Both the position numbers and the translations under genes were made by a program. The notes under the pieces are model-generated. The model was not told where the DNA came from. It worked only from the letters and a program-made list of their open reading frames with translations, and ran no database searches. From NCBI GenBank assembly GCA_949152475.1, contig OX424555.1:14526868-14590867 (forward strand): a DNA stretch of 64,000 nucleotides, in the 5' to 3' direction. Source of the stretch: Terebella lapidaria (taxonomy: Eukaryota; Annelida; Polychaeta; Terebellida; Terebellidae). Below, one piece after another: positions 23,294 to 52,470 of the stretch; positions within the stretch are counted from its first letter, which is position 1; each line of letters begins with the position of its first letter.

Positions 23294-23586
23294 CGGACGA
23301 ATCCATATCGGTATAAGAATTTTAAAACATTGGAAATTAGTTAGTATAATCCAGGCAATACATTTGCATATAATGTCGTTATAAAATACCATGTGTATAA
23401 TATAATACTATAATATACCATGAGTATACAAGGTAAAACAGTAGAACTGTATGCACTTCTCTATATTTTAGGAAACTCTGACGTTCATTGTCAAATTTGG
23501 ACAAGTTTGAGATTGCAGGTGTTGGTGGAGCTTACAGTGATTAGCTTCATGAAAAAAATTCGAAAAAACGTCGTGTCACCTGATTA

Positions 23587-24388
23587 TGTAGTAATTTTAG
23601 CGACTGTAACCCCCGTCCCTCCCGCGCATACATATTCCCACAACAAACATTCATTCTACATGACTTACATACAGGACAGGTACAGACTATACGATCACAA
23701 GCATAAACTCCATGTAGTCATGGTTACATACACAGGTCAATCCACATGCACTTGCGGCCTTATTCATTCGGTACATCGACCCAGTTAGTTTCGGCCTTGA
23801 CCTTCACAAGCACCAACTTCTAAACATAGAACATGACACACCCACCGCTCACATCACGTGCACAGATATAAGCATAACAAGTCTCGTTCACGCGCCGGGG
23901 AAACCCACTTTCCCGGTGAGATCAGCACACATCAGCACATACATGACCAATCACAACACCGCATGCATTTGGCGGGAAAGTCTACACCACATGTTGCCGG
24001 CCACACAGTTTTTGCTGAGAGTTGAGTAGAAGCGGTCACAGAGAATGGACGTGTTGTGACAGAGTTGAGAAGTGGATGTCCTCATGAGCAGACGTGTTTC
24101 TAAGTTGTGGCCGTGATTGTAAAGCGAAGGCCTAACACGAGGACTACTAGATATTGAACTGTGATATTCATATGTTGGATTGTTCAAAGGACTAAATATC
24201 GAGGATATAGTATTGTCGACTGGGGAAATCACCGGACGTAGGTGTGTTTGCGGCCTTGTAGTGTGATTGAGACATTGTCGGCTTTCATCCCAAATAAACT
24301 ATTGAACTGCTACTGCCGGCCTTGTGATTTAGCACAGCGATCACAGACATTTCGGCCTAATATCGGCCATAGAACGATATTTATCACA
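23587..24388 (+). repeat. 5' LTR of element 1
   Basis: 802 bp, same length and apparently identical to the 3' copy at 36196-36997. It has TG...CA ends and a polyadenylation hexamer AATAAA at 24293-24298. A short stem-loop at 23895-23916 (arms CCGGGGAAA and TTTCCCGG) is also present in the LTRs of element 2. Confidence 0.95.
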
Positions 24389-24389
24389 T

Positions 24390-24407
24390 TGGCGCCGTTC
24401 GACCAGG
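24390..24407 (+). other. Probable primer-binding site of element 1
   Basis: TGGCGCCGTTCGACCAGG begins two bases after the LTR end. Position and the leading TGG (pairing with the CCA end of a tRNA) mark it as the minus-strand primer site. The same sequence follows the 5' LTR of element 2. I could not assign the tRNA. Confidence 0.7.
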
Positions 24408-24451
24408 ATCTGAGCTAGTCTCGGATTACTGACCCTAACTTACCGGCAGTG

Positions 24452-27025
24452 ATGGCATTGACCCCGGGAGCGTTCCGAGGTGAGTCGGCCGACCAGACAG
24501 ATGAAGAAGTCACGTTCAACCCGACCTTCCGACCTTCCGGCCCCCGCTCAGTTGTTATGAGCGACACAGTTCCGTTGTCACAGGAACAACAACCGACCGG
24601 CCTGTTCGACTCCATGGACGAACATTCGACCCTGAGATCGTCTTCGCCGCCCGTCGACCTGATACAGGAGTTCCTCGACGAAGACCCGCTCGCACCTCAA
24701 CACACAGTAAGTGACATTTTGAGTGCACACGCTAGGGCGTATTCGGCAACGTCGGCCAGAACAATCCAGAGACTATTGAACTCTGCCGACAGAAACTATA
24801 TGCGCTCACGTCAAAGAGCGAGCGTATATCGTGCTACCGACCCAGAACAGTTATCAGTGAACGTTCGGCCGGTAACCATAGACACATCAATGGTTACACA
24901 CCCACCGAGTGACTCTCGGATACGACAGTGGGTTTGTCAGTCTGACAATGTTCCGGAATCGGTCCCGCCAAGCGCTTATTCGGTAGATCGGCCACTGGCG
25001 CCGTCAACGACGCCGAGACGACATGACCCCGCGACTGAGACGTACTCGCGCATACCGACCGAGCCAACGGTGGTAGAGTACACACAACCCGGCCAGGCGA
25101 GAGTAACGAAAGAGAACATCCCGGCGACGACCGATGCCCCGATCGTGACACCTCTACGACCGCAACGACCCAGCGACCCGACGACGGAATTTCGCGCCAC
25201 CACACGGCAAGCGCGACTTCGGCAACCACCACCGACATCAAGTCGCCGACCTCACGACTCCGACATGCCGGCCTCCGACTCGCGCCCCCTCGCGCCGACC
25301 GCTTCCCGACCGTCGCCGACCGACGGAGAACAGCCGCGCTTCGCCTCGCCGCAAGACCCAGTTGTGTCTGCTCCGGCAGAAAGTGTTGTACCCATGATCG
25401 GACCTCCGATCTCTCAGCCAATCGGCTACACCACTGGATACGGTGTATCGCCAGTCGGATACCCTGGCGCAACAAGCGGTGTTTCAAATGGAGTAGCTGT
25501 CGGATACTACCAACCACCTGTCGGCTATATGAACCCACCACCCGGATACGGTGGCGTTCCAAGTGTGATGGCTGACACCGGCTATCATGGTGCACAAACC
25601 GGATTAGTGTACCATGGTGTAGGCCCAGACGGATCGACATACCGATATCCACCGCCGGCTGTAATCCCACCCTCAGTCGGGATACCATGGGTGACGCCAC
25701 CATACAGTCAAACGGCCCCTGTCGCACCAATAGCGTACGACCCCAACAGCATTCCGGCACCACCCGCTACTTCGCCCGCCGTCTCCGCGACAACAGAACC
25801 GACCGCACCCGCTAACACGACCTCGGCAGCTCCGATTGTTACGACTTCAACTGCTCTGGCTGTCACGCCAACGACGGCTCCCGTCACAACAACGCCGACT
25901 GTGGTGAGCGTCGACACGCCCACGCCCCAGAGACTCACGTCTGAGCCCCAACCGTTAGCAATGGCTAAAACGGCTCAATGGCGTGCGACCTTCAAGGAGG
26001 GCAATCTCACACAGTACATACGGAGCTTCGAGCAATTCACTACGGCCTTCACATATTCCGACCTCAATAAAACAACGACCTTCCGGAGTACGCTGCGCGG
26101 CCGCGCCGAAGCGTTAGCTCTGAACATTCCGGTCGAGACTCCCTGGGAGGAGTTTCGTTGTCAGCTCTTGGAGGGCTGGGAACCCGCACCTCGTCGGCAG
26201 TCCAAACGGGACGATTTTCCGTTTCTAAAAAGAGAACGGAAGGAGAATGCGGAACATTACTTAGAGCGGCTTCAAGCTCTGGCTGAGCAAGTGTTTGACG
26301 ATGTCACGCCAGAGTCCCGGCAACGAACAGTAATCTCCCAGTTCGTCAACGGCCAACCCGACCACATTGCCGACAAACTGTGCGTGTTCACTTTCCATAG
26401 TTACGGTGAAGCGCTGACGGCCGTCCTCAAAGCTGAAAGTCGTCAGCAACGGACCAACAGAGATCGTCAGAGGGGCACACGACGTGCCGACATCTCCGTG
26501 AGCGGATACCCGGATGATGATTGTGTCGACCAAGAACTGTCTTGTGCTATGGGACAGATCAATCAGGGAGGAACGCCGACCCCTGAACAGGTTGCGGCTT
26601 ATTACGACCCTGCCGACAGTGACACGACCGGCCTTCAAGGATGTGAAGAACATTCTGTGCCAGCCTGTTCACGCGAATGGGTGGCGGAAGCTTTCCAGAG
26701 CGTCCTTAGCGACGAGAATGGACTCTGTGAGGAGACAGCTATCTATTCCGTCCTACGAACTACGGCCCCGACTAAAGGTGATCGGCCTCCACAGCCCGGA
26801 CAACCAGCCGTATGCTTCTTCTGCAAGAAGCCCGGCCATCGCTGGATGCGGTGTTTTCGGCTTAAAGACGTCTTAGTGCGCAATGGCATGAAGCCACTAA
26901 CTTTTCGACCTAAAGGTGCTGGTACTGACCGAAGGACAGATCAAGTATTGTCAGTACCTAACCAAATCGGCAACCAAACCAAGTCGGCCCCGACAGAGCC
27001 AACGGCTCAGTCGTTAAACCAGTAG
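24452..27025 (+). CDS. gag: Gag-like protein of element 1
   Basis: An 857-residue frame starting 63 bases after the LTR. The first 500 or so residues are rich in Pro, Thr and Ser and include a low-complexity Gly/Tyr/Pro stretch with repeated GY pairs. A capsid-like helical region follows (about 500-680). Near the C-terminus is a CCHC zinc knuckle, CFFCKKPGHRWMRC (about 788-801), typical of nucleocapsid. In LTR elements Gag forms the particle and packages the RNA. The next frame, pol, opens in a different register at the gag stop, so Pol is presumably made by frameshifting or another mechanism known for this family. Confidence 0.88.
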   Translation: MALTPGAFRGESADQTDEEVTFNPTFRPSGPRSVVMSDTVPLSQEQQPTGLFDSMDEHSTLRSSSPPVDLIQEFLDEDPLAPQHTVSDILSAHARAYSATSARTIQRLLNSADRNYMRSRQRASVYRATDPEQLSVNVRPVTIDTSMVTHPPSDSRIRQWVCQSDNVPESVPPSAYSVDRPLAPSTTPRRHDPATETYSRIPTEPTVVEYTQPGQARVTKENIPATTDAPIVTPLRPQRPSDPTTEFRATTRQARLRQPPPTSSRRPHDSDMPASDSRPLAPTASRPSPTDGEQPRFASPQDPVVSAPAESVVPMIGPPISQPIGYTTGYGVSPVGYPGATSGVSNGVAVGYYQPPVGYMNPPPGYGGVPSVMADTGYHGAQTGLVYHGVGPDGSTYRYPPPAVIPPSVGIPWVTPPYSQTAPVAPIAYDPNSIPAPPATSPAVSATTEPTAPANTTSAAPIVTTSTALAVTPTTAPVTTTPTVVSVDTPTPQRLTSEPQPLAMAKTAQWRATFKEGNLTQYIRSFEQFTTAFTYSDLNKTTTFRSTLRGRAEALALNIPVETPWEEFRCQLLEGWEPAPRRQSKRDDFPFLKRERKENAEHYLERLQALAEQVFDDVTPESRQRTVISQFVNGQPDHIADKLCVFTFHSYGEALTAVLKAESRQQRTNRDRQRGTRRADISVSGYPDDDCVDQELSCAMGQINQGGTPTPEQVAAYYDPADSDTTGLQGCEEHSVPACSREWVAEAFQSVLSDENGLCEETAIYSVLRTTAPTKGDRPPQPGQPAVCFFCKKPGHRWMRCFRLKDVLVRNGMKPLTFRPKGAGTDRRTDQVLSVPNQIGNQTKSAPTEPTAQSLNQ

Positions 27026-30000
27026 TGGAAGGTGCTACGGAGCAAGGACCTTCCGGGCAACAGAACAATGTTACATGCTCCACACCTGCGGTTGTCGTAA
27101 CTACCAAACCAACAGTACCAACAGTTACGACCCCACAGCCGGCCCAGCCCACACCTCAGCTCCTTGAAGGGGTGTGTACCAAGTGTCGAACTCCGACCCC
27201 AAAGCCGGCTCGCCCTCATGAAGGGGTGTTCGCGCCACTTCCACAACGGCCTCCACGGGAAAATCGTCGTCCTGAAGGGGTGTCGCCCCCGACCGCCAAC
27301 GGCACCGGAACAGATAGTATGTCTGAGGTGGAGTGGATCTCCGATGACGGAGGGTTCTACGCGTTCCCATTTGGACCGGAATCCAGATTGCCGCCGCTGC
27401 ACACACTCTTCAAGCCACCGCCGGACAACCCCGCAATTCCGGCCGTCATAGACAATTCGAGAGCGGCACATGAGTGCTGGAAGTTATCGGTACGCGTCGG
27501 GGATAAGACAATACAAGCTGTGCTCGACTCCGGAGCGCAAATCTCTTTGCTCCGACGCGATCAGCTCCGACACGTCCCCACCGATCAACGACAGCTACAG
27601 CCTACTTCGGCCACGATTCGTGACGTCAACGGACAGTCAAGCCCAATCGATGGACTGATCGACCTCCCAATTCAGGTCGGGACCAACCATATGATTGTGA
27701 TATTTTGTGTAGCTGACATCCACGACGCCATGATACTCGGCATGAACTTTTTCCGGCAAGCTCACGCTGTAGTGAATTACGGCGCAGGAACAATACAGGT
27801 ACACAAAGAAATCCTGTTTGCGCACAAGGACATTGAAGCCAATGTTGTTAGAATGGCAGTGCGCCGAGCCGTCACCGTCCCCGCACGTAGCGAGGCGATC
27901 GTAGAGCTAATCCCGACCTCCAGAGTTCGAGTTCGGCAGCATCCACGGATGATTCAACCACTGACGGCTTTTCCCGAGGACACTGACCTCATCATGGGAA
28001 GAACATTAACGACCTTGGACCGACAATGTGTAAAGGTGTCTGTAGTCAACACGGCAGATACCGGTATCACACTTACTCGATCCGACCCTGTCGCCATAGC
28101 CAGTCCGATCGAGAGTGTTGTCGGAGCTCTACCAAGACCCGGAGAGGAGCCCGACCTGTCCACAGCCGACGCCAGTCACTACCGCGACCTGCCGCCACAT
28201 CTACAAGAGATGGTGGATCGCGCCGGACTAGCGCCAGAACAACACCGGCGTTGCGCTAACCTGATCCATCAATATCAGGACACCTTTATGCACCCGGATG
28301 GACAGTTAGGACGGACCCAAGTCGTCCAACACAAGATTGACACCGGCAATTCGGCCCCGATTCGGCAACGTCAACGACGCGTCCCTCAGGCGCAACAGAG
28401 CATCATAGATGAGGAGGTCGACAAGATGCTTCGCTTGGGGTGCATTGAGCTGTCAGATTCGCCCTGGAGCGCACAGGTGGTGCTCGTGCGTAAAAAAAAC
28501 GGCCAAGTGAGATTTTGCGTCGATTATCGGCTCCTGAATGATGTCACCCGCAAGGATTCCTATCCGTTGCCCAACATTCAGGACACTCATGACGCCCTGG
28601 CGGGCGCTACATACTTTTCGGCCTTGGACTTGGCTTCCGGCTACTGGCAAGTCGAAGTCGACCCTACAGACAGACCGAAAACTGCCTTTGCGACAAGGAA
28701 AGGACTATACCAGTTTAAGGTTATGCCATTCGGCCTCAGCAATGCACCGGCAACATTTGAACGGCTGATGGAAACCATACTCCGTGGATACTTGTGGACA
28801 CGGTGTATGTGTTACCTGGATGACGTCATCGCTTACGGCAGAACATTCGATCAGGCACTCGCAAACCTGGAGGCGGTCCTGGATCGGATTAGATCGGCAG
28901 GCCTGAAGCTTCAACCCAAGAAGTGTGAACTGTTCCAGAGGGAAATTTTGTACTTGGGGTTTATAGTGAGCGGCCAAGGAATTCGTGTCGACCCCAACAA
29001 GGTCAAAGCCATCAGAGAATGGCCGACCCCGTGCGAGATCTCCGATGTCAGATCTTTCCTTGGTTTCGTCAATTACCACAGGCGATTCATCAAGGACTAT
29101 GCTGAGATCGCCGAACCTCTCGTAGCACTCACCCGAGGTGAATGTCATTTCACTTGGGGACCGGCTCAGCGACGCGCTTTTCGGCGGCTCCGCGACGCTC
29201 TCATCCAGGCGCCTAAGCTCGCGCATCCGACCCAGAGTCCGGATGATTACTTCATCCTCGACACGGACGCTAGCGGCTACGCTGTGGGAGGCGCACTCTC
29301 ACAGAGGGTCAACGGGAAAGAAATCCCCATCGGGTTTGCCAGCAAAACCCTATCCCGGACCCAACGGAACTATTGTACCACGTACCGAGAACTGCTGGCA
29401 GTGGTAGAAATGGTTCAACATTATCTGCATTATCTTTGGGGTAGGAAGTTCCTCCTCCGGACCGACCACAGCTCCTTGAGGTGGCTCAAGAACTACAGCG
29501 ACGCGGACGGCATGCTCGCCAGGTGGCTCGCTAAGTTGCAGCAGTACGACTTCAAGATAGAGCATCGGCCCGGCAAACTTCACGGCAACGCAGACGGCTT
29601 GTCACGGTGTCACAGTTGCAAACACCAAGACTGTCCCGGACGACTCGACACACCTCCGACCGACCCAGAGACAAGTTCTGGAGAACTTCCAGTTCGTCGG
29701 ATCACTGTTGTTTCGGCTAAGACAAGGGCAGACCTCCTGAACAGTGATTCCATAACATCACCGGTCTTGCCCCAACTAGTTTCGGCACGCCAAGTTGTTC
29801 GAGTCCGTGCTTTGGACGCCACACTTGATGGGCAAAAGTGGCTTTCGGACTATTCGGCTCAGGACATTGTCGCGGCACAGCAAGCCGACCCGAGCGTCGG
29901 AAAAGTGCGACAGTGGATGTTGATCGGCACTAAACCAGACTCTAAGGAGGTAGCGCGCCATGGGGAGGAGGTAAAAACACTTGTTTCCAGATGGAGCCTC

Positions 30001-31554
30001 CTGGCGCTACAAGACGGGGTACTAGTTCGGCACGTAAAACCCGACCCCGCTGGACGGCCTGTGGTGCAAACCGTGCTCCCCGTAGCACTCAGAACGCAGG
30101 TTTTGCACCAACTTCACGACCTGAAGATTGTCGGACATCTCGGCATTCAGCGAACCATCGAGAGAGTCAGGCGCCGATTCTACTGGCCCGGCCTGGCACT
30201 GGATGTCACCCGCTGGTGTGCCCGCTGCTCGCAATGTGTCACCCGCAAAGGAAAACCGGTCCCAAAACGATCGCCTCTGACACAGTTGCCGACAGGAGCG
30301 CCTTTCGACCGGATCGCGATGGACATTCTCGACACCCACAAAGTCACGGGAAGAGGCCATCGGTATATCCTTGTTGTGTCGGACTATTTCACGAAATATA
30401 CGGACGCCTTCCCGCTGCGGCGACATACCGCCAAAAATGTTGCCGACATCCTGGTAAACAGATGGATAGTTTATCATGGCGTCCCCAAGGCAATCCATAG
30501 CGACCAGGGCACCGAGTTCGAGTCGGCTCTATTTCGGCATGTCGTGCGTCTTCTGGGCGCTAAGAAGATCCGCACGGCCCCATATCGACCCCAGAGCGAC
30601 GGCCAGGTTGAGCGATTCAACAGGACATTGCTCAACATGCTGAGTGCATTCGTCAGCGATCGTGCGAACGACTGGGACGTGCACCTGCCATATGTGTTAA
30701 TGGCCTATCGAACCTCAGTACACTCGTCCACGGGATGCACCCCGCATCTGATGGTGTATGGACACGAGTGTAACTTGCCAGTCGACCTCATGTTCCCGAC
30801 TTACGACCCCGAACCTCTACCTCCGTGTGGTCCGGAGTATGTGGAGTATTTACGGCAAGCGATCAGGACGGCCCACGGTTTCGCTCAGGACCATCTTGAG
30901 AAAGCGGCAATTCGGCAGAAGATGGGTTATGACGCCCACGCCAAGCCTCGACCTCAGTTCCAACCAGGAGAACTGGTCCGATATTATTATCTGCCCCTCA
31001 CGCAGAATAATAAGTTCGCTCGGCCTTGGACTGGTCCCTGGAGGATCGTCGACCGTGTGACTGAGGTAGATTACCGAATCGCCTTGGTTTCCAACCCTCG
31101 GAACACTCGTGTTGTTCATCTGGACGTACTCAAGCCGTACGAAGGTGACAACCAAGCGGCTCACATCTATTCCGACCCTGTACGACCTTCGACGTCGTCA
31201 AGCAAATCCGGCTCAGAGCAATCGGCCGACCCCCTGGGACTCCTCAAGGAGTTCTACTACCCCTGGGAGGTCACAGTACAAGATCGGCATACAGATACAG
31301 ACCAAACAGCTGAGTCTGACTCGCCAGCGGCCCAAGATCGTAAATCGCGATCTCCAACTTCATCCGGCTCAAGTCGTCATCGGCAACGGAAAAGATCACA
31401 CAGATCAAGTTCCGACACACCAAAACCGGCATGCAAGACACGCAGGCAAAAGCCTGTGATATCATCCGACCCCGAGACAAGCGAGGCTACGCCCCCGCCT
31501 GCACGACCAAGTCGACCCAAACGCAACGCACGCAGACCGGCCCGCTACAGATAA
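27025..31554 (+). CDS. pol: Pol polyprotein of element 1 (PR-RT-RNase H-IN)
   Basis: A frame of about 1509 codons. In order it holds a Pro-rich lead, an aspartic protease with DSGA (about residue 166), reverse transcriptase with YLDD (about 596), RNase H starting DTDASG (about 745), and integrase with an HHCC zinc domain (about 1030-1072) and a DD35E core. A GPY/F-like module follows the integrase core, and the tail is basic and Ser/Pro-rich. I do not see a chromodomain. The lead contains three exact copies of the 3' polypurine-tract sequence (see findings). The order RT-RNase H-IN defines the Ty3/gypsy group. The frame looks uninterrupted. Confidence 0.95.
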   Translation: MEGATEQGPSGQQNNVTCSTPAVVVTTKPTVPTVTTPQPAQPTPQLLEGVCTKCRTPTPKPARPHEGVFAPLPQRPPRENRRPEGVSPPTANGTGTDSMSEVEWISDDGGFYAFPFGPESRLPPLHTLFKPPPDNPAIPAVIDNSRAAHECWKLSVRVGDKTIQAVLDSGAQISLLRRDQLRHVPTDQRQLQPTSATIRDVNGQSSPIDGLIDLPIQVGTNHMIVIFCVADIHDAMILGMNFFRQAHAVVNYGAGTIQVHKEILFAHKDIEANVVRMAVRRAVTVPARSEAIVELIPTSRVRVRQHPRMIQPLTAFPEDTDLIMGRTLTTLDRQCVKVSVVNTADTGITLTRSDPVAIASPIESVVGALPRPGEEPDLSTADASHYRDLPPHLQEMVDRAGLAPEQHRRCANLIHQYQDTFMHPDGQLGRTQVVQHKIDTGNSAPIRQRQRRVPQAQQSIIDEEVDKMLRLGCIELSDSPWSAQVVLVRKKNGQVRFCVDYRLLNDVTRKDSYPLPNIQDTHDALAGATYFSALDLASGYWQVEVDPTDRPKTAFATRKGLYQFKVMPFGLSNAPATFERLMETILRGYLWTRCMCYLDDVIAYGRTFDQALANLEAVLDRIRSAGLKLQPKKCELFQREILYLGFIVSGQGIRVDPNKVKAIREWPTPCEISDVRSFLGFVNYHRRFIKDYAEIAEPLVALTRGECHFTWGPAQRRAFRRLRDALIQAPKLAHPTQSPDDYFILDTDASGYAVGGALSQRVNGKEIPIGFASKTLSRTQRNYCTTYRELLAVVEMVQHYLHYLWGRKFLLRTDHSSLRWLKNYSDADGMLARWLAKLQQYDFKIEHRPGKLHGNADGLSRCHSCKHQDCPGRLDTPPTDPETSSGELPVRRITVVSAKTRADLLNSDSITSPVLPQLVSARQVVRVRALDATLDGQKWLSDYSAQDIVAAQQADPSVGKVRQWMLIGTKPDSKEVARHGEEVKTLVSRWSLLALQDGVLVRHVKPDPAGRPVVQTVLPVALRTQVLHQLHDLKIVGHLGIQRTIERVRRRFYWPGLALDVTRWCARCSQCVTRKGKPVPKRSPLTQLPTGAPFDRIAMDILDTHKVTGRGHRYILVVSDYFTKYTDAFPLRRHTAKNVADILVNRWIVYHGVPKAIHSDQGTEFESALFRHVVRLLGAKKIRTAPYRPQSDGQVERFNRTLLNMLSAFVSDRANDWDVHLPYVLMAYRTSVHSSTGCTPHLMVYGHECNLPVDLMFPTYDPEPLPPCGPEYVEYLRQAIRTAHGFAQDHLEKAAIRQKMGYDAHAKPRPQFQPGELVRYYYLPLTQNNKFARPWTGPWRIVDRVTEVDYRIALVSNPRNTRVVHLDVLKPYEGDNQAAHIYSDPVRPSTSSSKSGSEQSADPLGLLKEFYYPWEVTVQDRHTDTDQTAESDSPAAQDRKSRSPTSSGSSRHRQRKRSHRSSSDTPKPACKTRRQKPVISSDPETSEATPPPARPSRPKRNARRPARYR

Positions 31555-32936
31555 CCCCGGCCTTGTTATCTGATTGATGCTATTGATGATGAATTATGCA
31601 TGTCTAATGGACTATGATATCATGTCTTTCCCATAATATTATAATATATTACAATAACAATATATATGCATTTAATATGTACAAGATGTCAGTGAGGCGA
31701 ATTCGACATATATACACTTGATATGATTTCATAATTACGATGCTGGTGAAAAATTGATTGCATTATGATATGTGTTTCGACCCCGTATAACGTATGCTAT
31801 TGTTCCGCGTGTGTTACGCACTAACTAAGATTATCATGTCAGATTCTATCCATGTGCCAGCCGAAGAGGATAATAATTCATGTCACGCCGTGAGTAAGGC
31901 CACTTAGTTGTCGAAGAGGTGGTAGTGTGATTCGTTCCGGGGTATGCGTCGACCGAGCCTCTACCCACTCCATGTAGTATTCGGAGGAACGGCCCAGTGG
32001 TACGGGAACCAGTCACTAAATAGCTATCATACCAAGATGCGGCCTGTCATCAAATTCATCACCCAAAAATATTCAAAGCGCCACGGTGTGACCGACCCTG
32101 ATCATTGCAATTTCGACCCCGACAATATTAGCGGCCCCGTTGTCTTGTGAACTGGCTGAAAATGAATGGAACGAAGTCCGCCCCTGCGAGTGATTGACAT
32201 TAATGTCTCAGCCTTTAATAACTGTGTGTCGTCTGCTAGACAGCAATTCGGCCGTTAGTTTATTGTGCGCTAACTTATGGAGAAAAGGAACGATCAAAGT
32301 AACAGGTCACAAGGAACGCACGAGCGCAAATAAACATTTAAGCTGTTTACAGCACCCACATGAAATCTCCCCTGATAAAGACAATAGTGAGTCGTCGGGC
32401 AAAAAGAGCCCAGTAATTTGAACAGTCGATTAGCACAAATAGACAATGTATAGGAATGTGTAATCCAGGGGACGGCAGACGGACATTCGGAAAAATGGAC
32501 AGTGTGAGGATCCCCCTACTGTCGTAATGGACTGACCCAAATAGGTCAGAGAGAGATCGTACCAGCGTTTCCCTGACGACGGCCCGCCTTGTTGCAGATA
32601 CACTTGGAACAATGGGATACAGCGTAAAGACGTTTTTGTATATCGGCAGAGAGCGCCCCCCGGCCCGATTCGTGGAATTGGGATACAGATAAGCATCTCA
32701 GTGTACGGCAGTGGAAATTAACGGCAAGTAGGTCATTTGCGCCTGAACTTCTGAAGCAGCAGGAGCTCGATCAGATACGGAGAAAAACTTTGTACTGGTT
32801 CGGAACATTTATCGGATAATTACGTGGCATTTAATGACATTGAACTGGTGAAGTTTGTGAATAGTTGTCGGATATTTGGGATAAACATTACGGTCGGCCT
32901 AGCTGTGTGAAGTGACATTTGTTTGCGGCTTCCGCC
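31555..32936 (+). other. Spacer between pol and third ORF of element 1
   Basis: 1.4 kb with no supported coding frame. It starts AT-rich and becomes more mixed. Most of it (to about 32600) is recognisably similar to the stretch after pol in element 2 (49520 to about 50550), so it is an old part of the family, not a later insertion. Confidence 0.7.
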
Positions 32937-35615
32937 ATGGCGGATAAGCCGAGTAATGATAAAGACAGTGACGGCTCCGCTGATAGTCGGCCCCGATCTA
33001 TCAAATTTGACGGCACTAAGTTAACGGTCGAGGTTGTTGAACGAGGAGACGAGCAAGACAACCCCATTGTGTTGACGGACGATGAAATGTCCGCTATCGG
33101 CCCCGAACCTAGTTCGGAACAAGCAGTTACGGCTTCCGGCTCAAAGAAACAGCCACGATACCAAATCATGGCAAGGCTGGCGCAACGCGGCTCCCGGCAC
33201 ACCCCGAGTCCGACCTCAGAGGACGACCCGGATCGTTTTCGGCAGTTAGAGGAAGGTGGAGAAATTGTACGTCGAGCCTTGGAGGCTCAACGCGCGGCGG
33301 AAGCCGCCAGCTCGGCAAAATCGGCTCTCGCTCGGCAGGCGATAACACCAATCGAACCTGCCCCAGTATCTTCGGCCTCAACAACGCCGGTAGTTCGGCC
33401 CCGTGCCGTCACGTCACCGGCACAGTCTTCGGCCTCGTCAGCAAGTTCATCGTCCGGCAGAAATCTTCACCCGTCGGCGCGAAATTCACGACGCGCTAGT
33501 TCCGGCCCTGTGACGCGTGCTTCGGCTTATCGTCGCCAGATATCGGAGCTCATGGCTCTAGTTCCGGCCCCAATCACCCCGTATGGAGCTCGGCCGATTG
33601 ATTGGAATGACGTTCCGTTCCATCTTCGGAATCGGCATGATGGTTACGGCCATGAACATAATTTCGGCGCACCCTCACGGCTGACGGAGGGTAATTTGGC
33701 GACCTTGGAACCATTAGGGAGAGAAGACGGCCGTTATCTGTGTCCTTTCTGCATCGGAGAGGAGGATGGAGAGGCAGGGAGGATATGGCCAACGGTACCT
33801 CGACGTGGACCTTTCCGTTCGGCCTCGGATTTGGACGCCCACGTCCTGGCGTACCATTTTCCGCTCCTGCGATTTTTCGTCTGTCCGGCCAAAGACAATT
33901 TCGTCACGCTCACGTCGGAGGACATGATCCGGCACCTGAGTGAGGCGACTCAGACTCACGTCGGCCTTCTCCCGCTGTTTGAGCAGGGACAGCTCAACGC
34001 TTCCGGCCCTATGCTGCAACGGTTCGCGCTACGCTGCCGCGTAGACATGCAGCCCAGCCCAAATTACCGGCCCCCACGTGTTCCGGCCGACATTCCAATC
34101 TTCCGACGGGATGTCAACAGAGTATTGACTTTCGGGATTTGGCACATGGCGCCTCCACTGTTCGACCAGTACCCCCCGAATTCGGCCCCGGAAATTCATC
34201 AAGTGCTCCGACGCCTTGAATACCTTCGGCCTTCAACCCGAGCGGAGGAGGATCGCCTAGCTCGGATGGTGAACGACATCATGGCGATGAATCGCTGGGT
34301 GACCGTACGTCGGCCTAGCACGATATTCTTTACTCGGCCAGTCGCTTATCAGACGGACGCACTCAAGCCTCCCAGCTCCGTGGTTTCGGAGCCATCGGCT
34401 CAGTCCACTCCTGTGACGGCCCAAGTGCAGACTCGGCCTTCGGATATCATCCCACGGAAACTTGTGGTAGAGCGGCCTACGGCGACAAATGTAACAGACT
34501 ATCGCGTGAGGGAAGGATTGGTTCCCCCACCGGAGGAATTTCCTCCTTTGTCGGCAACGCCTCCGACAGGTCAGGAGACCAACCGGAAAGAAGTTACGGC
34601 CCAGCCGCGGGACTCTCCTCCACCTCTACAGCCGGCTGCGGAGGAACCCCGCCAGGAATCGATTTCGGCCTCGGTCAGCGACCGTGAGGATTCGCCCCTT
34701 CCGTCCAGGCGAACGGTCCTCCAGACGGACGAACCTCTATATCTGGACGGCAGCATGGAGATCGTTCAGACGGTCGTCACCAAGGATTCGGCTGCTGATC
34801 GGCCGCGACTACAGTACGACGAGCCTGAGTCTCTAGAACCTCTCCACAGAGACTTAGATGAACGGCTGCCGTTTCACGGCTCAGGAGAATTTTCGGCTGA
34901 CATCCAATTCGTGCAGCAGCACGGGACTCGGTTGTCGACTCGTATGCTTCCCGGCCTACAGGCCCTGCCAGGGCAGAACCCGGATCTGGCCAACCCACTC
35001 AGGAGTCGGGAAGCGAACCAGCTTCCGAATCTTCCCCGTGTCCACGAGGAGCACTGGGAGTCCCATATCGCCCAGGCGGCCCACAACGCTGACCCGTTGA
35101 TCTTGCCGGCCCGGAAGAGCGAGCATCTTCCGACTTTATATTTGGCCCGCGCCGACGACATGGCGCACCAACATTTTCGGGAGATCCGGCGCTTCTATCT
35201 AGAAGCCATGGACCAGCATATTCGGCAGGCTGAATATAACGGCCTCTCTGTGGGATTCGGGATGGGAGTCCTTCACGAACGGCATCTCCCGACCTTCCCT
35301 GATCGGCTCGAGGAAGAGACCGACCACTTACGTCGGCAGTTACATCGGCTTGAAGACGAAAATGAGGATTTGCGGCAGGAAAATGTACAGTTACGTGCCC
35401 GGGTGACACACCTGGAACAGTCGGCCCCAGTTTCGACCTCGACGGATACGGCCGCGACACAAAGTGACTCGGGTACTACTATCCCGGGCGACCTGCTCGC
35501 CACTATTGTGTCAATTTTGCCCCGTCTGCCACCAGAGGAGCAACAACAACTGATGCGGCAGGCGTCGCCGGCACCACCACCACCTCCTGCTGGCAAGCGA
35601 GGCCAGAAGGAGTGA
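32937..35615 (+). CDS. Third ORF of element 1: zinc-finger-like, coiled-coil protein of unknown role
   Basis: 892 residues from an ATG in a good context (gccATGg). It is in the env position but shows no signal peptide or transmembrane segment, so it does not look like an envelope. The N-terminal part is acidic and Ser/Pro/Ala-rich. Around residues 269-315 a C-x2-C (CPFC) followed by H-x4-H (HVLAYH) makes a C2H2-like zinc finger, with a further C...H...H group just after. Long Pro-rich linkers follow. Residues about 785-830 form a leucine-heptad coiled coil (HLRRQLHRLEDENEDL). A nucleic-acid-binding, self-associating protein is a reasonable guess, not shown. I recognise no homologous family. 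Element 2 has no counterpart. Confidence 0.8.
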   Translation: MADKPSNDKDSDGSADSRPRSIKFDGTKLTVEVVERGDEQDNPIVLTDDEMSAIGPEPSSEQAVTASGSKKQPRYQIMARLAQRGSRHTPSPTSEDDPDRFRQLEEGGEIVRRALEAQRAAEAASSAKSALARQAITPIEPAPVSSASTTPVVRPRAVTSPAQSSASSASSSSGRNLHPSARNSRRASSGPVTRASAYRRQISELMALVPAPITPYGARPIDWNDVPFHLRNRHDGYGHEHNFGAPSRLTEGNLATLEPLGREDGRYLCPFCIGEEDGEAGRIWPTVPRRGPFRSASDLDAHVLAYHFPLLRFFVCPAKDNFVTLTSEDMIRHLSEATQTHVGLLPLFEQGQLNASGPMLQRFALRCRVDMQPSPNYRPPRVPADIPIFRRDVNRVLTFGIWHMAPPLFDQYPPNSAPEIHQVLRRLEYLRPSTRAEEDRLARMVNDIMAMNRWVTVRRPSTIFFTRPVAYQTDALKPPSSVVSEPSAQSTPVTAQVQTRPSDIIPRKLVVERPTATNVTDYRVREGLVPPPEEFPPLSATPPTGQETNRKEVTAQPRDSPPPLQPAAEEPRQESISASVSDREDSPLPSRRTVLQTDEPLYLDGSMEIVQTVVTKDSAADRPRLQYDEPESLEPLHRDLDERLPFHGSGEFSADIQFVQQHGTRLSTRMLPGLQALPGQNPDLANPLRSREANQLPNLPRVHEEHWESHIAQAAHNADPLILPARKSEHLPTLYLARADDMAHQHFREIRRFYLEAMDQHIRQAEYNGLSVGFGMGVLHERHLPTFPDRLEEETDHLRRQLHRLEDENEDLRQENVQLRARVTHLEQSAPVSTSTDTAATQSDSGTTIPGDLLATIVSILPRLPPEEQQQLMRQASPAPPPPPAGKRGQKE

Positions 35616-36182
35616 ACGTTTCGGCCCAGTGGTGACAAACAGACAATTGCCGGCCTCGATTGTGTCGGCCCCTGGAAATCCTGGTCACGCAGGACTAGTG
35701 ATGTATCGACCTTTCATTGTGTCGGCCTGATGACAGAAAGTGACTCGGAGAAATCCTGGTCACGATGATCATCCTGATTATGTCGGCCAAAATTTGTAAA
35801 TAGTTATCCTAGTCACGGTATTTTATTCATGTAATTTAGTTAAGGTTAATCCAGACAATTCTTTTTCAGTTTATAGACTCTAAATTAGTTTCCGTTTCAC
35901 TCTGAAGCGTCGAGGAGTTTTGTTCATACATTCCATTCATATCTCATCATTCGTTGTTGTGCATGTATGTGTAAATGTATCATCGTAGCGACTATTGACG
36001 GACTGACTGATGACGTTTATTTTGACGGTTAGAATTTTTATTGTATGAAGTGCTTTACCATTGTCGCGCGGTGTGTGTGTGTGAGTGTTGGGGTTTGACC
36101 TTGTAGGACTTCTTAGCTTTTTATTGTTAGTTTTTGGCGACGGTAGGGTCCGGGTAGGGTAATTCCGAGGGCGTAGAATTAA
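35616..36182 (+). other. 3' non-coding region of element 1
   Basis: No coding frame. It contains spaced copies of AATCCTGGTCACG (35677-35689, 35752-35764, and a diverged copy near 35805) alternating with TCGGCC motifs, then an AT-rich part and a short GT run near 36070. The same arrangement, shorter, is in element 2 at 50755-51199. Confidence 0.7.
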
Positions 36183-36195
36183 TGAAGGGGTGTAA
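36183..36195 (+). other. 3' polypurine tract of element 1
   Basis: TGAAGGGGTGTAA lies directly before the 3' LTR. A purine run in this place is the primer for plus-strand DNA in LTR elements. The identical 13 bases precede the 3' LTR of element 2. Confidence 0.8.
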
Positions 36196-36997
36196 TGTAG
36201 TAATTTTAGCGACTGTAACCCCCGTCCCTCCCGCGCATACATATTCCCACAACAAACATTCATTCTACATGACTTACATACAGGACAGGTACAGACTATA
36301 CGATCACAAGCATAAACTCCATGTAGTCATGGTTACATACACAGGTCAATCCACATGCACTTGCGGCCTTATTCATTCGGTACATCGACCCAGTTAGTTT
36401 CGGCCTTGACCTTCACAAGCACCAACTTCTAAACATAGAACATGACACACCCACCGCTCACATCACGTGCACAGATATAAGCATAACAAGTCTCGTTCAC
36501 GCGCCGGGGAAACCCACTTTCCCGGTGAGATCAGCACACATCAGCACATACATGACCAATCACAACACCGCATGCATTTGGCGGGAAAGTCTACACCACA
36601 TGTTGCCGGCCACACAGTTTTTGCTGAGAGTTGAGTAGAAGCGGTCACAGAGAATGGACGTGTTGTGACAGAGTTGAGAAGTGGATGTCCTCATGAGCAG
36701 ACGTGTTTCTAAGTTGTGGCCGTGATTGTAAAGCGAAGGCCTAACACGAGGACTACTAGATATTGAACTGTGATATTCATATGTTGGATTGTTCAAAGGA
36801 CTAAATATCGAGGATATAGTATTGTCGACTGGGGAAATCACCGGACGTAGGTGTGTTTGCGGCCTTGTAGTGTGATTGAGACATTGTCGGCTTTCATCCC
36901 AAATAAACTATTGAACTGCTACTGCCGGCCTTGTGATTTAGCACAGCGATCACAGACATTTCGGCCTAATATCGGCCATAGAACGATATTTATCACA
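36196..36997 (+). repeat. 3' LTR of element 1
   Basis: 802 bp, reading as identical to the 5' LTR. AATAAA is at 36902-36907. The target duplication ATTA follows at 36998-37001. Confidence 0.95.
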
Positions 36998-37001
36998 ATT
37001 A

Positions 37002-37375
37002 TAACTGCTCGGAGTGAATGTTTTTCCATTTATGCCTGGCTGAAAAGTAAGTGTATCCATTAAACCCGGTATGAACACACCTTGATAACAGTCATGCGCT
37101 GGTTGGCACTACAATCTGCAAGGAAATCCCAGAAAGTTGCTTGTTCTACAAAAAGGCCTGTGTTTTTCAAAATTTGATGAATACTTTTTTACCCATTAGC
37201 CTAAACAAGTAGGAACATAGTTTATTTCAAATGTTATAATGATGGACACCAAAATTTAATTTCATAGATTATACACCATGATAAACACCATACGTTCAAA
37301 ATTAAAGCTGGACAAATCCGATAAAAAATGAAATTCTATTTGTGTTTTTAATTCACATTACGTAATGTGCATATA
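37002..37375. other. Host DNA after element 1
   Basis: AT-rich, no gene. The minus strand has AATAAA at 37226-37221, about 150 bases beyond the stop of the small ORF at 37376-37648, and could serve as its polyadenylation signal. Confidence 0.5.
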
Positions 37376-41247: not shown

Positions 41248-41645
41248 CTTTCACGTAACAGCTAACTTGTATTAGCGAAGCCAAATGTGTCAGCACTTAG
41301 ATCACATACATGACACCAAAATTGCAAATCTTTCTCTACCACTTTGTGTCTGTCTGGTGTGTAGCAGATCACCCACATTGCATGTAATTGATTTAATGTA
41401 TAAACGTGTGTGATTTGTAAATGCGCGTGGGCGAAATTTTAGATCTATATATTTCGTGGGTTTGTGAAGTTACTTCGATTTTTGAGTTTTTATCTGAAGT
41501 CAACGTATTACATATAGTCGTATGTACCGGTACATGCACATCAGATCAAATATACTAGGGCGTACTTAACTGGTATACCAAACGGATATATATGGAACAT
41601 TTCTATCCCCAAACAGTGGCCCCCAAAATTGTGAGATTAGAATTT
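41248..41645. other. Upstream region of SDR gene C, up to element 2
   Basis: About 400 bases of AT-rich host DNA, presumably holding the SDR C promoter. Element 2 begins 403 bases upstream of the SDR C start codon. No motif could be pinned down. Confidence 0.5.
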
Positions 41646-41649
41646 GTAT

Positions 41650-42417
41650 TGTAGCATTTTTAGTGACAGTAAACGACCGTCCCCTCTCGCACACATCTCC
41701 ATGACAACTCGCCCACGCATATTCTACACACCACGCTAAATATAACCACTACACGATCACTGCCTGGACAAAACATACAAAACCACGAATAACCACGCGG
41801 CCCCCAAACAAGGCAAACACATGTCAAACAGCTCACACCTTCGGCCCCGTCCAATCAAATAATTCGACCCCAGTACACCGGCCTTGACCTTCACATGCAC
41901 ATACTCATTTACATAGACATCACATGCACAGCATTCAGACCCAAACATGTCTCGACGCGTACCGGGGAAACCCACTTTCCCGGTGAGATCAGCACATATC
42001 AGCACATACATAGCCAATGACACAACTCCGCTCACACTTGGCGGGAAAATACATGTACTCTGTCCCACGGCCCCGCAAATCTGCGCAGTGGAGAAGAGAC
42101 TTTCACGATGAACAGACGTGTTGGATATAGCAGAGAAAATAGCCGTGATTTAGTAGAAGTGAATATATTTGTGAACTGTACAATCTGGAGTATAAACTGT
42201 GAGACATATACGAAGGACTATAATATAGGATATATATAGAAATATAGACTGGGAACATCACCGGACATAGGTGTGATTCGGCCCTTGAATTGTGTGTGAT
42301 TGGACATCGGCTTTTTCCATTGGAATAAACAGTTGAAATATAACTGCCGGCTTGTTATTAGCACAACGACCCCGGAATAAGTCGGCTTGATATCGGCCGT
42401 GAACGATATTCTTCACA
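41650..42417 (+). repeat. 5' LTR of element 2
   Basis: 768 bp, paired with 51213-51980. AATAAA is at 42324-42329. The conserved stem-loop lies at 41962-41983. The sequence is clearly related to the LTR of element 1 in blocks but is diverged between them. Confidence 0.93.
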
Positions 42418-42418
42418 T

Positions 42419-42436
42419 TGGCGCCGTTCGACCAGG
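42419..42436 (+). other. Probable primer-binding site of element 2
   Basis: The same TGGCGCCGTTCGACCAGG as in element 1, one base after the LTR end. Confidence 0.68.
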
Positions 42437-42481
42437 ATCTGAGCTAGTCTCGGATTATCGACCCCGATTCGACCGGCAGAA

Positions 42482-45040: not shown

Positions 45041-48000
45041 GGGAAGGTGCTGAGGAGCAAGGGCCTTCCAGACAACAGGACAACGTTCCCCGCTCCACAT
45101 CTGCGGTTGTCACGACTACTGTACCGGTAACGACACCAATAACGACCCCGCAGCCGGCCCAGCCCACACCTCAGCTCCTTGAAGGGGTGTGTACGAAATG
45201 TCAAGCTCCGACCCCGAAACCGGCCTCTTTTCATGAAGGGGTGTCCGCACCGCGACCGCAACGGCCACCACGTGGAAACCGTCATCCTGAAGGGGTGTCA
45301 CCCCCGACCGCCGACGGCACCGGAACGGACAGCATGTCCGAGGTTGAATGGATCTCCGACGTCGGAGGATTCTATGCCTTTCCGAGTGGACCGGAACCCA
45401 AACTGCCGCCTCTTCACACACTCTTCAGGCCACCGTCAGACGACCCCGAAATTCCGCCTGTCATCAACAACTCCAGCGCCGCCAATCACAGATGCTGGAA
45501 GTTGCCGGTACATGTCGGAAACAAGACGATAAAGGCTGTACTCGACTCCGGAGCGCAGATCTCCCTGCTCCGATGCGACCAGCTACGTCACGTCCCCGCC
45601 GACCAGCGGCATTTGCGATCGACTTCGGCTACTATTCGTGACGTCAATGGACAGTCAAGTCCAATCGATGGACTGATCGACCTCCCAATACAGGTCGGAA
45701 CCAACCATATGATTGTGACATTTTGTGTGGCTGACATACATGACGACATGATTCTCGGCATGAACTTTTTCCGGCAAGCTCACGCTGTGGTGAACTACGG
45801 TGAAGGGACGATACAGGTACACAAGGAGATCCTGTTCGCACATAAAGACATTGAGGCCAATGTTGTCAGAATGGCCGTGCGACGAGCTGTCACCGTCCCC
45901 GCACGCAGCGAGGCAATAGTGGAGCTGGTCCCGACCTCCCGGGTCCGAGTCCGACAGCACCCGAGGATAGTTCAGCCACTAACGACCTTTCCCGAGGAGA
46001 CCGACCTCATTATGGGAAGAACACTTACGACCCTGAATCGGCAGTGCGTAAAGGTGTCGGTAGTCAATCCAGCAGAAACCGGCATTACGCTCACCCGTTC
46101 CGACCCTGTCGCCATAGCCAGCCCTGTCGAAAGTGTCGTCGGAGCTCTGCCACGACCCGGAGAAGAGCCCGACCCGTCCCCGGTAGACGTCAGTCACTAC
46201 CGCGACCTACCGCCACATCTGCAAGAAATGGTGGATCGCACTGGACTAACGCCAGAACAGCATCGGCAGTGCGCCAACCTGGTTCACCAATACCAGGACA
46301 CGTTCATGCATCCGGACGGCCAACTGGGACGGACTCAAGTCGTCCAACACAAGATCGACACCGGCAACTCGGCCCCGATTCGGCAACGACAGCGACGCGT
46401 CCCTCAGGCGCAGCAAAGCATCATCGACGAGGAAGTCGACAAGATGCTCCGCCTGGGGTGTATTGAGCCGTCAGATTCGCCCTGGAGCGCACAGGTAGTG
46501 CTCAGACATAAGAAGAACGGCCAAGTGAGATTTCTGCGTCGATTATCGGCTCCTGAATGATGTCACCCGCAAGGACTCATACCCCTTGCCCAACATTCAG
46601 GACACTCATGACGCCCTGGCAGGCGCCAACTACTTCTCGGCCCTAGACCTAGCCTCCGGCTACTGGCAGGTCGAAGTCGACCCTAGCGACAGACCGAAAA
46701 CTGCCTTCGCCACAAGGAAGGGACTCTATCAGTTTAAGGTCATGCCATTCGGCCTTAGCAACGCCCCGGCAACCTTCGAACGGCTTATGGAGACCATACT
46801 CCGTGGTTACTTGTGGACCCGGTGTATGTGCTATCTCGACGACGTGATAGCTTACGGCAGAACATTCGATCAGGCACTCGCAAACCTGGAAGCGGTCCTG
46901 GATCGGATCAGATCGGCAGGCCTGAAACTTCAGCCCAAGAAGTGCGAGTTGTTCCAACGGGAAATCTTGTACTTAGGGTTCATAGTGAGCGGCCAAGGAA
47001 TTCGAGTCGACCCCAACAAAGTTAAAGCCATTAGGGAATGGCCGACCCCGTGTGAGATCACCGACGTCAGGGCTTTCCTTGGTTTCGCCAATTATCACCG
47101 GCGATTCATCAAGGACTACGCTGAGATCGCTGAACCTCTCGTAGCGCTCACCTGAGGTGAATGCCACTTCACTTGGGGACCGGCCCAGCGATGAGCTTTC
47201 CAGCGACTCCGCGACGCCCTCATCAAGGCGCCAAAGCTCGCTCACCCGACCCAGAATCCGGACGACTACTTCATCCTCGACACGGATGCAAGCGGCTTCG
47301 CTGTAGGGGGTGCCCTCTCATAAAGGGTTAACGGGAAGGAAATCCCCATCGGGTTCGCCAGTAAGACCCTTTCCCGAACCCAATGGAACTATTGCACCAC
47401 CTATCGGGAACTGCTGGCAGTAGTGGAGATGGTGCAGCACTATCGGCATTACCTCTGGGGTAGGAAATTCCTCCTCCGGACCGACCATAGCTCGCTGAGG
47501 TGGCTGAAAAATTACAGCGACGCCGACGGCATGCTCGCTAGGTGGCTCGCCAAGCTACAGCAGTATGACTTTCGGATAGAGCATCGACCCGGTAAACTAC
47601 ACGGTAACGCCGACGGCCTGTCACGGTGCCACAGTTGTAAACACCAAGACTGTCCCGGACAACTCGTCACACCTCCGACCGACCCAGAAACAAGTTCCGG
47701 AGAACTTCCAGTTCGCCGGATAACTGTTGTTCCGACCCAGACAAGGGCAGACCTCCTGGACAGTGATTCGATAACATCACCGGTCTTGCCCCAGCTAGTT
47801 TCGGAACGCCAAGTTGTTCGAGTCCGTGCTTTGGACGCCACACTTGATGGACAAAAGTGGCTTTCGGACTATTCGACCCAGGACATTGTCGCGGCACAGC
47901 AAGCCGACCCCAGCATCGGAAAAGTGCGGCAATGGATGTTAGCCGGCACCAAGCCCGACTCTAGAGAAGTCGCCCGCCAAGGAGAGGAGGTAAAGACACT

Positions 48001-49519
48001 TGTTTTCCGCTGGAACCTCCTGGCGCTACAAGACGGAGTGCTGGTTCGACATATAAACCCCGACCCCGCCGGACGGCCTGTGGTGCAAACCGTGCTCCCC
48101 GTAGCACTCAGGACACAAGTTCTGCACCAACTACACGACCTAAAGATTGTCGGACATCTCGGCATACAGCGTACCATCGAGAGAGTCAGGCGCCGATTCT
48201 ACTGGCCCGGCTTGGCGTTGGACGTCGCCCGCTGGTGTGCCCGCTGCCCGCAATGTGTGACCCGCAAGGGTAAACCGGCCCCAAAAAGATCGCCCCTGAC
48301 ACAGCTACCGACAGGAGCGCCGTTCGACAGAATAGCGATGGGCATCCTCGACACCCACAAGGTCACGGGAAGGGGCCATCGGTATGTACTAGTCGTGTCG
48401 GACTACTTTACGAAGTACACTGACGCTTTTCCGCTACGGCGACATACGGCCAAAAATGTTGCCGACACCCTGGTGAATCGGTGGATAGTCTACCACGGTG
48501 TCCCCAAGGCGATCCATAGCGATCAAGGTACTGAGTTTGAGTCGTCCCTGTTCCGGCATGTTGTGCGTCTACTGGGCGCTAAGAAGATTCGTACGACCCC
48601 ATACCGACCCCAGAGCGACGGCCAAGTTGAGCGATTCAACAGGACATTGCTCAACATGCTGAGTGTGTTCGTCAGCGATCGTGCAAACGATTGGGACTTG
48701 CACCTGCCATATGTGTTAATGGCCTATCGAACCTCAGTACACTCGTCCACGGGATGCACCCCGCATCTGATGGTGTATGGACATGAGTGTAACTTGCCAG
48801 TCGACCTCATGTTTCCGACCTACGACCCTGAGCCTCTACCTCCGTGTGGTCCGGAGTATGTGGAGTATTTGCGGCAAGCCATCAGGACGGCCCACGGTTT
48901 CGCCCAAGACCATCTCGAAAAAGCGGCAATTCGGCAAAAGATGGGTTATGACGCCCACGCAAAACCACGACCCCAGTTTTAACCAGGCGAACTGGTCCGG
49001 TATTATTATCTGCCACTCACGCAGAATAATAAGTTCGCTCGGCCCTGGACTGGTCCCTGGAGGATCATCGACCGTGTAACCGAGGTGGATTACCGAATCG
49101 CCCTGGTTTCCAACCCTCGGAACACTCGTGTTGTTCATCTGGATGTGCTCAAGCCATACGAAGGTGACAACCAAGCGGCCCACATCTACTCCGACCCTGT
49201 ACGACCCACCGAGTCGTCAAGTCACTCCGACCCAGAACAGTCGCCCGACCCCATGGGACTTCTCAAGGAGTTTTATTACCCCTGGAAGGTAACAGTCCAA
49301 GATCGGCATACTGATTCAGACCAAACAGCAGAGTCTGATTCGCCAACGACCCAGGATCGTCAATCGCGATCTCCGACTTCATCCGGCTCAAGTCGACATC
49401 GGCAACGGAAAAGATCACACGGATCAAGTTCCGGCACACCAAAACCGGCACGCAAGACACGCAGGCAAAAGCCTGTGGTACCCAAACGCAACGCACGCAG
49501 ACCGGCCCGATATAGATAA
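45041..49519 (+). pseudogene. pol region of element 2 (broken)
   Basis: It contains recognisable protease, reverse transcriptase, RNase H, integrase and GPY/F-like parts in the Ty3/gypsy order, very similar to element 1. Several breaks interrupt it. The start of the region keeps the three internal copies of the polypurine-tract sequence at the same 54-bp spacing as element 1. Confidence 0.92.
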
Positions 49520-51199: not shown

Positions 51200-51212
51200 T
51201 GAAGGGGTGTAA
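51200..51212 (+). other. 3' polypurine tract of element 2
   Basis: TGAAGGGGTGTAA lies directly before the 3' LTR, identical to element 1. Confidence 0.78.
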
Positions 51213-51980
51213 TGTAGCATTTTTAGTGACAGTAAACGCTCGTCTCCTCCCGCACACATCTCCATGACAACTCGCCCACGCATATTCTACACACCACGCT
51301 AAATATAACCACTACACGATCACTGCCTGGACAAAACATACAAAACCACGAATAACCACGCGGCCCCCAAACAAGGCAAACACAGGTCAAACAGCTCACA
51401 CCTTCGGCCCCGTCCAATCAAATAATTCGACCCCAGTACACCGGCCTTGACCTTCACATGCACATACTCATTTACATAGACATCACATGCACAGCATTCA
51501 GACTCAAACATGTCTCGACGCGTACCGGGGAAACCCACTTTCCCGGTGAGATCAGCACATATCAGCACATACATAGCCAATGACACAACTCCGCTCACAC
51601 TTGGCCGGAAAATACATGTACTCTGTCCCACGGCCCCGCAAATCTGCGCAGTGGAGAAGAGACTTTCACGGTGAACAGACGTGTTGGATATAGCAGAGAA
51701 AATAGCCGTGATTTAGTAGAAGTGAATATATTTGTGAACTGTACAATCTGGAGTATAAACTGTGAGACATATACGAAGGACTATAATATAGGATATATAT
51801 AGAAATATAGACTGGGAACATCACCGGACATAGGTGTGATTCGGCCCTTGAATTGTGTGTGATTGGACATCGGCTTTTTCCATTGGAATAAACAGTTGAA
51901 ATATAACTGCCGGCTTGTTATTAGCACAACGACCCCGGAATAAGTCGGCTTGATATCGGCCGTGAACGATATTCTTCACA
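51213..51980 (+). repeat. 3' LTR of element 2
   Basis: 768 bp. AATAAA is at 51887-51892. The target duplication GTAT follows. Confidence 0.93.
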
Positions 51981-51984
51981 GTAT

Positions 51985-52470
51985 TTATGTTTTATCTATA
52001 ATTACTATGTGAGGCACAGTACAACATGAACATCCGGGCTATGGGCGTAAAGAACAGTCCCAGCAGACATCGCCTGGTTTGTGTAGTTAGACTCAAATTG
52101 TGTACAAACTTGGATACGAGATTTACTGGTAGTGGATATTCAAAACAGGAGTCGTATGTGAATGCTCATTTTGTGCTAATTACGTCGCTTCTGTTGCCAT
52201 GTTGTACTTGCTTTATAATTTGTACACTTTCGTGATTTGTAATTTTATGGGCCAAATTCACAAAATAGATTCATTTTTAGCAACTGTGAGCCACACTCGC
52301 TGAATGATGGAGGGGAACGTGGAAAGTGTGTCAGAGCCGAATATAGCAGCCAGCCACCAGATAGTTCCAAGTTTATGTGTGTGAATATTTGATGTTCTTT
52401 TCTTTGCAGTCGGTTCATTGTGATTAAAACGATTACCTTTAGGCGTTTAGTGTGACGTCGTTTATTTCAG
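51985..52470. other. Host DNA between element 2 and the transmembrane exon
   Basis: No exon could be assigned with confidence, although the N-terminal exons of the downstream membrane-protein gene should lie here or further upstream. A short frame at 52026-52235 and an ATGATG at about 52302 are candidates without splice support. Confidence 0.4.

Follow-up and report, generated by a model that had tools for sequence, protein, structure and literature searches.

Three internal copies of the 3' tract at the start of pol suggest a tandem plus-strand primer cluster in a Ty3/gypsy retrotransposon of Terebella lapidaria

The stretch of DNA analysed here (the window) comprises 64,000 nucleotides from the polychaete Terebella lapidaria (GenBank assembly GCA_949152475.1, contig OX424555.1, positions 14,526,868 to 14,590,867 of the forward strand) and contains two long terminal repeat (LTR) retrotransposons, elements 1 and 2, both on the + strand (Table 1). 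Each element carries three copies of an 11-mer, TGAAGGGGTGT, exactly 54 bp apart near the start of the pol open reading frame (ORF), and a further copy two bases before the 3' LTR. This arrangement, reported in a preliminary description made from the sequence alone, was confirmed in both elements. The 11-mer gave eight exact matches in the 64 kb, all on the + strand, against a chance expectation of 0.04, and none of 100 shuffles reached this number. When up to two mismatches were allowed, element 1 (23583-37002) showed no site beyond the exact copies, and element 2 (41645-52010) showed one, at position 50309 on the minus strand, with two mismatches. The internal array sits directly upstream of the protease region of pol.

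The LTR borders of both elements are settled by the 4-bp target-site duplications (TSD) ATTA and GTAT. These duplications, the TG..CA LTRs and, in element 1, the pol order protease (residues 155-245), reverse transcriptase (RT, 488-648), RNase H (739-841) and integrase (1019-1189; Pfam) are those of Ty3/gypsy elements (Metaviridae).

Table 1. Features of the two retrotransposons in the window.
Feature	Position	Strand	Remarks
5' LTR, element 1	23587..24388	+	802 bp, TGTAG...CACA, TSD ATTA
TGGCGCC, likely start of primer binding site	24390..24396	+	one base past 5' LTR
gag-like ORF, element 1	24449..27025	+	named gag from position; no Pfam match
pol ORF, element 1	27025..31554	+	protease, RT, RNase H, integrase; Ty3/gypsy order
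internal tract copy 1, element 1, TGAAGGGGTGT	27165..27175	+	codons GAA GGG GTG
internal tract copy 2, element 1, TGAAGGGGTGT	27219..27229	+	exact match
internal tract copy 3, element 1, TGAAGGGGTGT	27273..27283	+	exact match
third ORF, element 1, 898 aa	32919..35615	+	between pol and 3' LTR
3' tract, element 1, TGAAGGGGTGT	36183..36193	+	then AA, then LTR at 36196
3' LTR, element 1	36196..36997	+	0/802 differences from 5' LTR
5' LTR, element 2	41650..42417	+	768 bp, TSD GTAT
internal tract copy 1, element 2, TGAAGGGGTGT	45180..45190	+	exact match
internal tract copy 2, element 2, TGAAGGGGTGT	45234..45244	+	exact match
internal tract copy 3, element 2, TGAAGGGGTGT	45288..45298	+	exact match
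3' tract, element 2, TGAAGGGGTGT	51200..51210	+	then AA, then LTR at 51213
3' LTR, element 2	51213..51980	+	8 differences in 768 columns from its 5' LTR

In the 761-Mb genome, the 11-mer occurs at 3510 exact sites, as compared to 606 for the reversed control. Protease sites of the LDSGAQIS type numbered 691 (control 0), T-type 3' junctions with their upstream context 716 (control 0), junction-like sites with A, C or G as first base 346 (control 16), and pairs of copies with C as first base 436 (control 0; an array of three makes two pairs). The places examined were the first 100 from each of these searches. Forty stretches were sampled through the protease DNA, and not through the 11-mer, from the 100 listed LDSGAQIS-type sites; 27 were picked because their anchor was unusual or represented its less common form, and the other 13 had the usual form. 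Three exact copies of TGAAGGGGTGT were found in 27 of the 40, and one mismatch in one of the three copies in 5; a further 7, from families more distantly related, had copies that were CGAAGGGGTGT, mixed or damaged, and one (L068) had lost the array. Thirteen other loci (L033-L045), selected from exact 11-mer matches, were read to the 3' end: the exact 3' copy was present in all of them and three exact internal copies in 10, while L040 had two exact copies and one with one mismatch, L039 one exact copy and two with one mismatch, and L045 one exact copy and one with one mismatch. The distance from the array to the 3' tract was 8.7-9.1 kb in 10 of these loci and 6.0-6.8 kb in 3, two classes that may represent element forms with and without the third ORF. 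L045 (C1:5206100-5213000, minus strand) is a member of a more distant T-type family, in which two internal copies, one of them mutated, lie 54 bp apart and the 3' tract is followed by AC and then by the LTR. In L100, a copy of the C family, the second spacing is 51 bp instead of 54, and therefore even spacing is not strict. Matches to the 11-mer were also met outside these elements. A 39-bp minisatellite (C1:1239759-1250212; L031, L032), many units of which begin with the 11-mer, was considered as a larger array and rejected, being a tandem repeat of other, element-unrelated sequence; the single matches L046-L049 were discarded because by eye they have no element context.

For the analysis of constraint, 81 copies were aligned over 480 bases. 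Ten loci were excluded, namely the copy in the window itself (L001), two pieces of the minisatellite, four unrelated matches, and L034, L037 and L045, which failed the anchor requirement. Among 19 representatives with less than 95% identity, mean diversity was 0.135 inside the 11-mers and 0.326 outside. The three tract sites, read from their second base, ranked 1st, 2nd and 4th among all 11-base windows, the 3rd being the protease anchor used to find the copies. Diversity was 0.47-0.53 at the first base of the 11-mer and 0.44-0.56 at the base following it, so that the edges are sharp and the bases on either side vary like other sites. Since these two bases vary freely, the conserved unit is the 10-mer GAAGGGGTGT, and the base before it differs between families. 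The preliminary description had taken the 11-mer for a polypurine tract (PPT); the repeated tract is real, but its unit is this 10-mer, which consists of the purine tract GAAGGGG plus TGT and is not an all-purine run. According to excerpts of a review, the all-purine nature of such tracts is not inviolable (PMC3185511).

Each internal copy encodes Glu-Gly-Val (EGV) through GAA, GGG and GTG. As described earlier, these codons could vary silently. In pol of element 1, GAA accounts for only 39% of the Glu codons, GGG for 17% of the Gly codons and GTG for 25% of the Val codons, and the chance of one copy's codon choice is therefore about 0.017. Where the residue is kept, the EGV codons were identical in 76 of 77 pairwise comparisons with element 1, as against 407 of 816 elsewhere (10 hand-picked representatives of the 18 others; all comparisons share element 1, and p is nominal). 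Codon columns were then considered for 18 representatives (L068 dropped), provided that 12 or more sequences were present and that 80% or more of these kept the residue. A single codon was used in 8 of the 9 EGV columns, and in 15 of 16 sequences in the ninth. One codon had a share of at least 93% in 9 of 9 EGV columns, as compared to 4 of 61 other columns (Fisher p 1e-8) and 0 of 9 anchor columns. Had the constraint acted on the protein, with EGV at 18-residue spacing as a linker or cleavage motif, codon identity would be incidental. The residues are indeed kept in 14/16 to 18/18 representatives per column; however, the codons of the copies hardly vary despite their low share in pol, the constraint extends to the first base (T) of the next codon although the residue there varies (Cys, Phe, Ser), and none of the long ORFs found includes the 3' copy. 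Selection at the protein level alone fails to explain the identity of the EGV codons, and this explanation, already largely contradicted, is very improbable. The silent sites within the copies do not drift with their surroundings, and the copies are conserved beyond coding need, as in a central polypurine tract. The reading given in the preliminary description, a constraint on the DNA or RNA as for a central polypurine tract, is supported by the diversity, by the codon columns and by the T/C tracking described below.

A recent duplication or gene conversion might also keep functionless copies alike. The tandem spacing would suit this origin, as would the youth of the element 1 subfamily, deduced from its protease region, in which the 40 best-scored of 962 candidate copies are 99-100% identical. 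Yet the two spacers within one array are unlike each other (17/43 and 12/43 bases shared in elements 1 and 2, respectively), between families the spacers diverge while the 10 bases stay fixed, and gene conversion confined to 10 bp at each of three sites is implausible. We consider that there is hardly any chance of this origin being the right one.

At the 3' end of the families read, two variable bases (AA, TA, AC, TT or AT) separate GAAGGGGTGT from TGTAG of the LTR (TGTAT in L090), and the base before the 10-mer is T, C or G. The loci were selected by the tract, and its invariance at these junctions is partly due to this choice, while the variability of its neighbours is not. Nine of the 10 junction stretches fetched resemble LTR junctions, whereas L097 does not. 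This arrangement suggests a primer reaching no further than TGT and a dinucleotide that is trimmed off during integration. Further types of 3' junction were seen in L095, L096 and L098 (G-first, or C-first in other contexts). The 10-mer could alternatively be the site of a host or element DNA-binding protein, with a role in transcription or as an insulator, and short repeated insulator sites are known in retrotransposons such as gypsy of Drosophila. Against such a role, the 3' copy occupies the position of the plus-strand primer, two bases from the LTR, in the families read (at loci picked by the tract), and we regard a protein-binding site of this sort as highly unlikely.

A tree of 25 of the 81 copies, from which the 11-mers were left out, contained a T clade, a C clade and the outlier L052. 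The internal copies of the C clade are mostly CGAAGGGGTGT, except that copy 1 of L061 has a T and that L053, L054 and L062 contain damaged copies; the 3' tract is likewise CGAAGGGGTGT in the members that have one among the matches listed. Internal sequences identical to the element's own 3' tract, as in a central polypurine tract, are found in both clades. Tracts and arrays were then paired by their listed positions (same strand, 3.5-11.5 kb apart, nearest first), the pattern for T-type junctions reading only to GAANGGG. Repeating the pairing with all 100 listed junction-like sites that have A, C or G as first base left the counts unchanged. Among the matches listed, the 66 protease sites with T-type anchor on C1 gave 63 T-type 3' tracts (two sites sharing one), no C-type tract and 3 sites with none; for 35 of these sites the array itself was read, and 33 of the 35 had a T-type tract and 2 none. 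The 6 distant sites on C1 gave 4 with a C-type tract (two sharing one) and 2 with none. The 100 listed C-first pairs merged into 62 arrays, 45 of which had a C-type 3' tract, 1 a T-type tract and 16 none listed. Because the listed T-type junctions reach only C2:9.37 Mb, the fair comparison is limited to C1 and that part of C2, where 26 C-first arrays gave 17 C-type tracts, 1 T-type tract and 8 with none listed. The lone C-first array with a T-type tract, a neighbour of L076, is T-family sequence with C in the first copy only. These pairings support the view that the internal copies follow the change of the 3' tract between the two clades, and the comparison put forward in the preliminary description thus came out in favour of tracking. 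No family altered inside the 10-mer was present among those sampled here. Arrays corresponding to the G-type and further C-type 3' tracts of L095 and L096 were not found in two 3-kb stretches, nor was the 3' tract of L062 in the one 2-kb stretch searched.

Taken together, the three internal 10-mers probably form a tandem cluster of central plus-strand primer sites in a Ty3/gypsy retrotransposon. The RNase H of the element would be expected to spare GAAGGGGUGU, or the purines in it, at four places, three of them internal and one at the 3' tract, and plus-strand DNA would start at each. The 3' site, the only one with the dinucleotide and the LTR end behind it, would make the LTR strong stop and define the integrating end; the internal copies could start DNA but would not make an integrating end, because no LTR end follows them. 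Upstream plus-strand segments would start at the internal cluster, which lies about 3.6 kb from the 5' end; the long minus strand would thereby spend less time single-stranded, and nicks or short flaps would remain there. Having three sites may provide redundancy. While the identity of the copies, their spacing, the codon-level constraint and the tracking of the 3' tract were directly observed, priming, any benefit from it and redundancy as the purpose of the triplication are our inferences from them.

The main rival to priming is a linear cis-acting RNA signal, which could serve packaging, splicing or export for the downstream ORF, or, as a motif, protease activation; a role in splicing or protease activation would resemble that in foamy viruses. 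There, four purine-rich elements lie in pol; element C controls env splicing, and protease activation requires A and B (PMC5294762, PMC6669543). The position of the array directly before the protease agrees with such a signal, and a triple array suits a protein-binding site. On the other hand, no RNA structure beyond that of shuffles was detected in the array (z +0.8 to +1.0, 3 sequences), which speaks against such a signal; in the case of a primer cluster, the lack of special folding fits a linear recognition site. On balance, an RNA signal appears unlikely.

Several points weigh against a primer cluster. GAAGGGG is a short purine run with TGT next to it, and a T-rich stretch lies about 45-70 bases upstream of the 3' tract, whereas the internal copies have none. 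Three copies 54 bp apart exceed what priming needs. The tracking amounts to a single T/C switch in two clades at four sites, not to independent events, and the base concerned lies outside the invariant 10-mer, just before it. Two of the 100 listed T-type junctions have an altered tract (TGAATGGG, TGAAAGGG), and one of these pairs with an array of exact copies (L056). Three exact TGAAGGGGTGT were missing in 13 of the 40 sampled sites (among them 7 from distant families, and L068 without array), and changes in spacing and damaged or lost copies exist. Finally, the case for priming was built on sequence. A bolder and rather doubtful possibility is that this Ty3/gypsy lineage evolved a tandem, coding-embedded cluster of three origins, and that the resulting multi-flap or multiply nicked region about 3.6 kb from the 5' end is a structure in its own right (for nuclear entry, minus-strand protection or recombination control), kept across at least two clades.

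As for the rest of the window, TGGCGCC next to the 5' LTR of element 1 is the likely start of the primer binding site. The third ORF of element 1 has no Pfam family, and its one PDB match had E 0.33. A protein search for relatives of pol residues 30-300 returned 1550 candidates, 0 of them at E <= 0.001. A 214-aa ORF at 57340-57984 encodes a hydrophobic stretch and a tail rich in proline, and has no Pfam match.

If the primer reading is correct, this high-copy Ty3/gypsy lineage is an independent natural case of internal plus-strand starts. The conservation of the array suggests that the second strand is copied from several starting points in a large gypsy-type family and, with at least 40 copies 99-100% identical in one region of pol, native complementary DNA ends may exist to be mapped. 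The purpose of an internal plus-strand start in lentiviruses, foamy viruses and Ty1 is still debated. Ty1 PPT2 and the lentiviral central tract lie within pol like the present array, but are single copies, as compared to three here. Both are named in PMC2829016 and PMC5371799, and the second of these sources, a review, notes that no central tract has been identified for Ty3. Foamy viruses have purine-rich elements A-D in pol, one of which is 100% identical to the 3' tract (PMC6669543, PMC5294762), whereas here all three match; they are located at the 3' end of pol (PMC6669543), and not at its start and in a retrotransposon as here. Athila4/Calypso (PMC2829016) and Bongo3 (PMC3605345), which are plant Ty3/gypsy elements, have an additional tract as well, but just one, in the linker or, for Bongo3, at the end of its gag-pol ORF, and the excerpts of these sources mention no triple coding array. 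Sireviruses, which are Ty1/copia elements, contain an octamer that matches the terminal tract exactly and is present in four copies on average; in two variant elements all copies had changed alike (PMC2829016). The same source, in the part available, describes a dinucleotide between the terminal tract and the TG of the LTR, like the two bases seen here, and upstream copies that, like our internal ones, lack an attachment site; it calls the role of the extra tracts unclear. The Sirevirus copies, however, lie downstream of pol, in the linker that leads to the 3' LTR, and most of them are less than 0.5 kb from this LTR (PMC2829016), whereas those of T. lapidaria are coding, precede the protease, are evenly spaced and belong to an element of Ty3/gypsy order, and the array is thus not a Sirevirus multiple PPT. 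The preliminary description knew of no triple, evenly spaced tract in this group, and none was reported in the titles and abstract openings of the papers listed in the literature searches, largely outside subscription journals. Internal tracts are known, and the triple, codon-embedded version in a Ty3/gypsy lineage is new.
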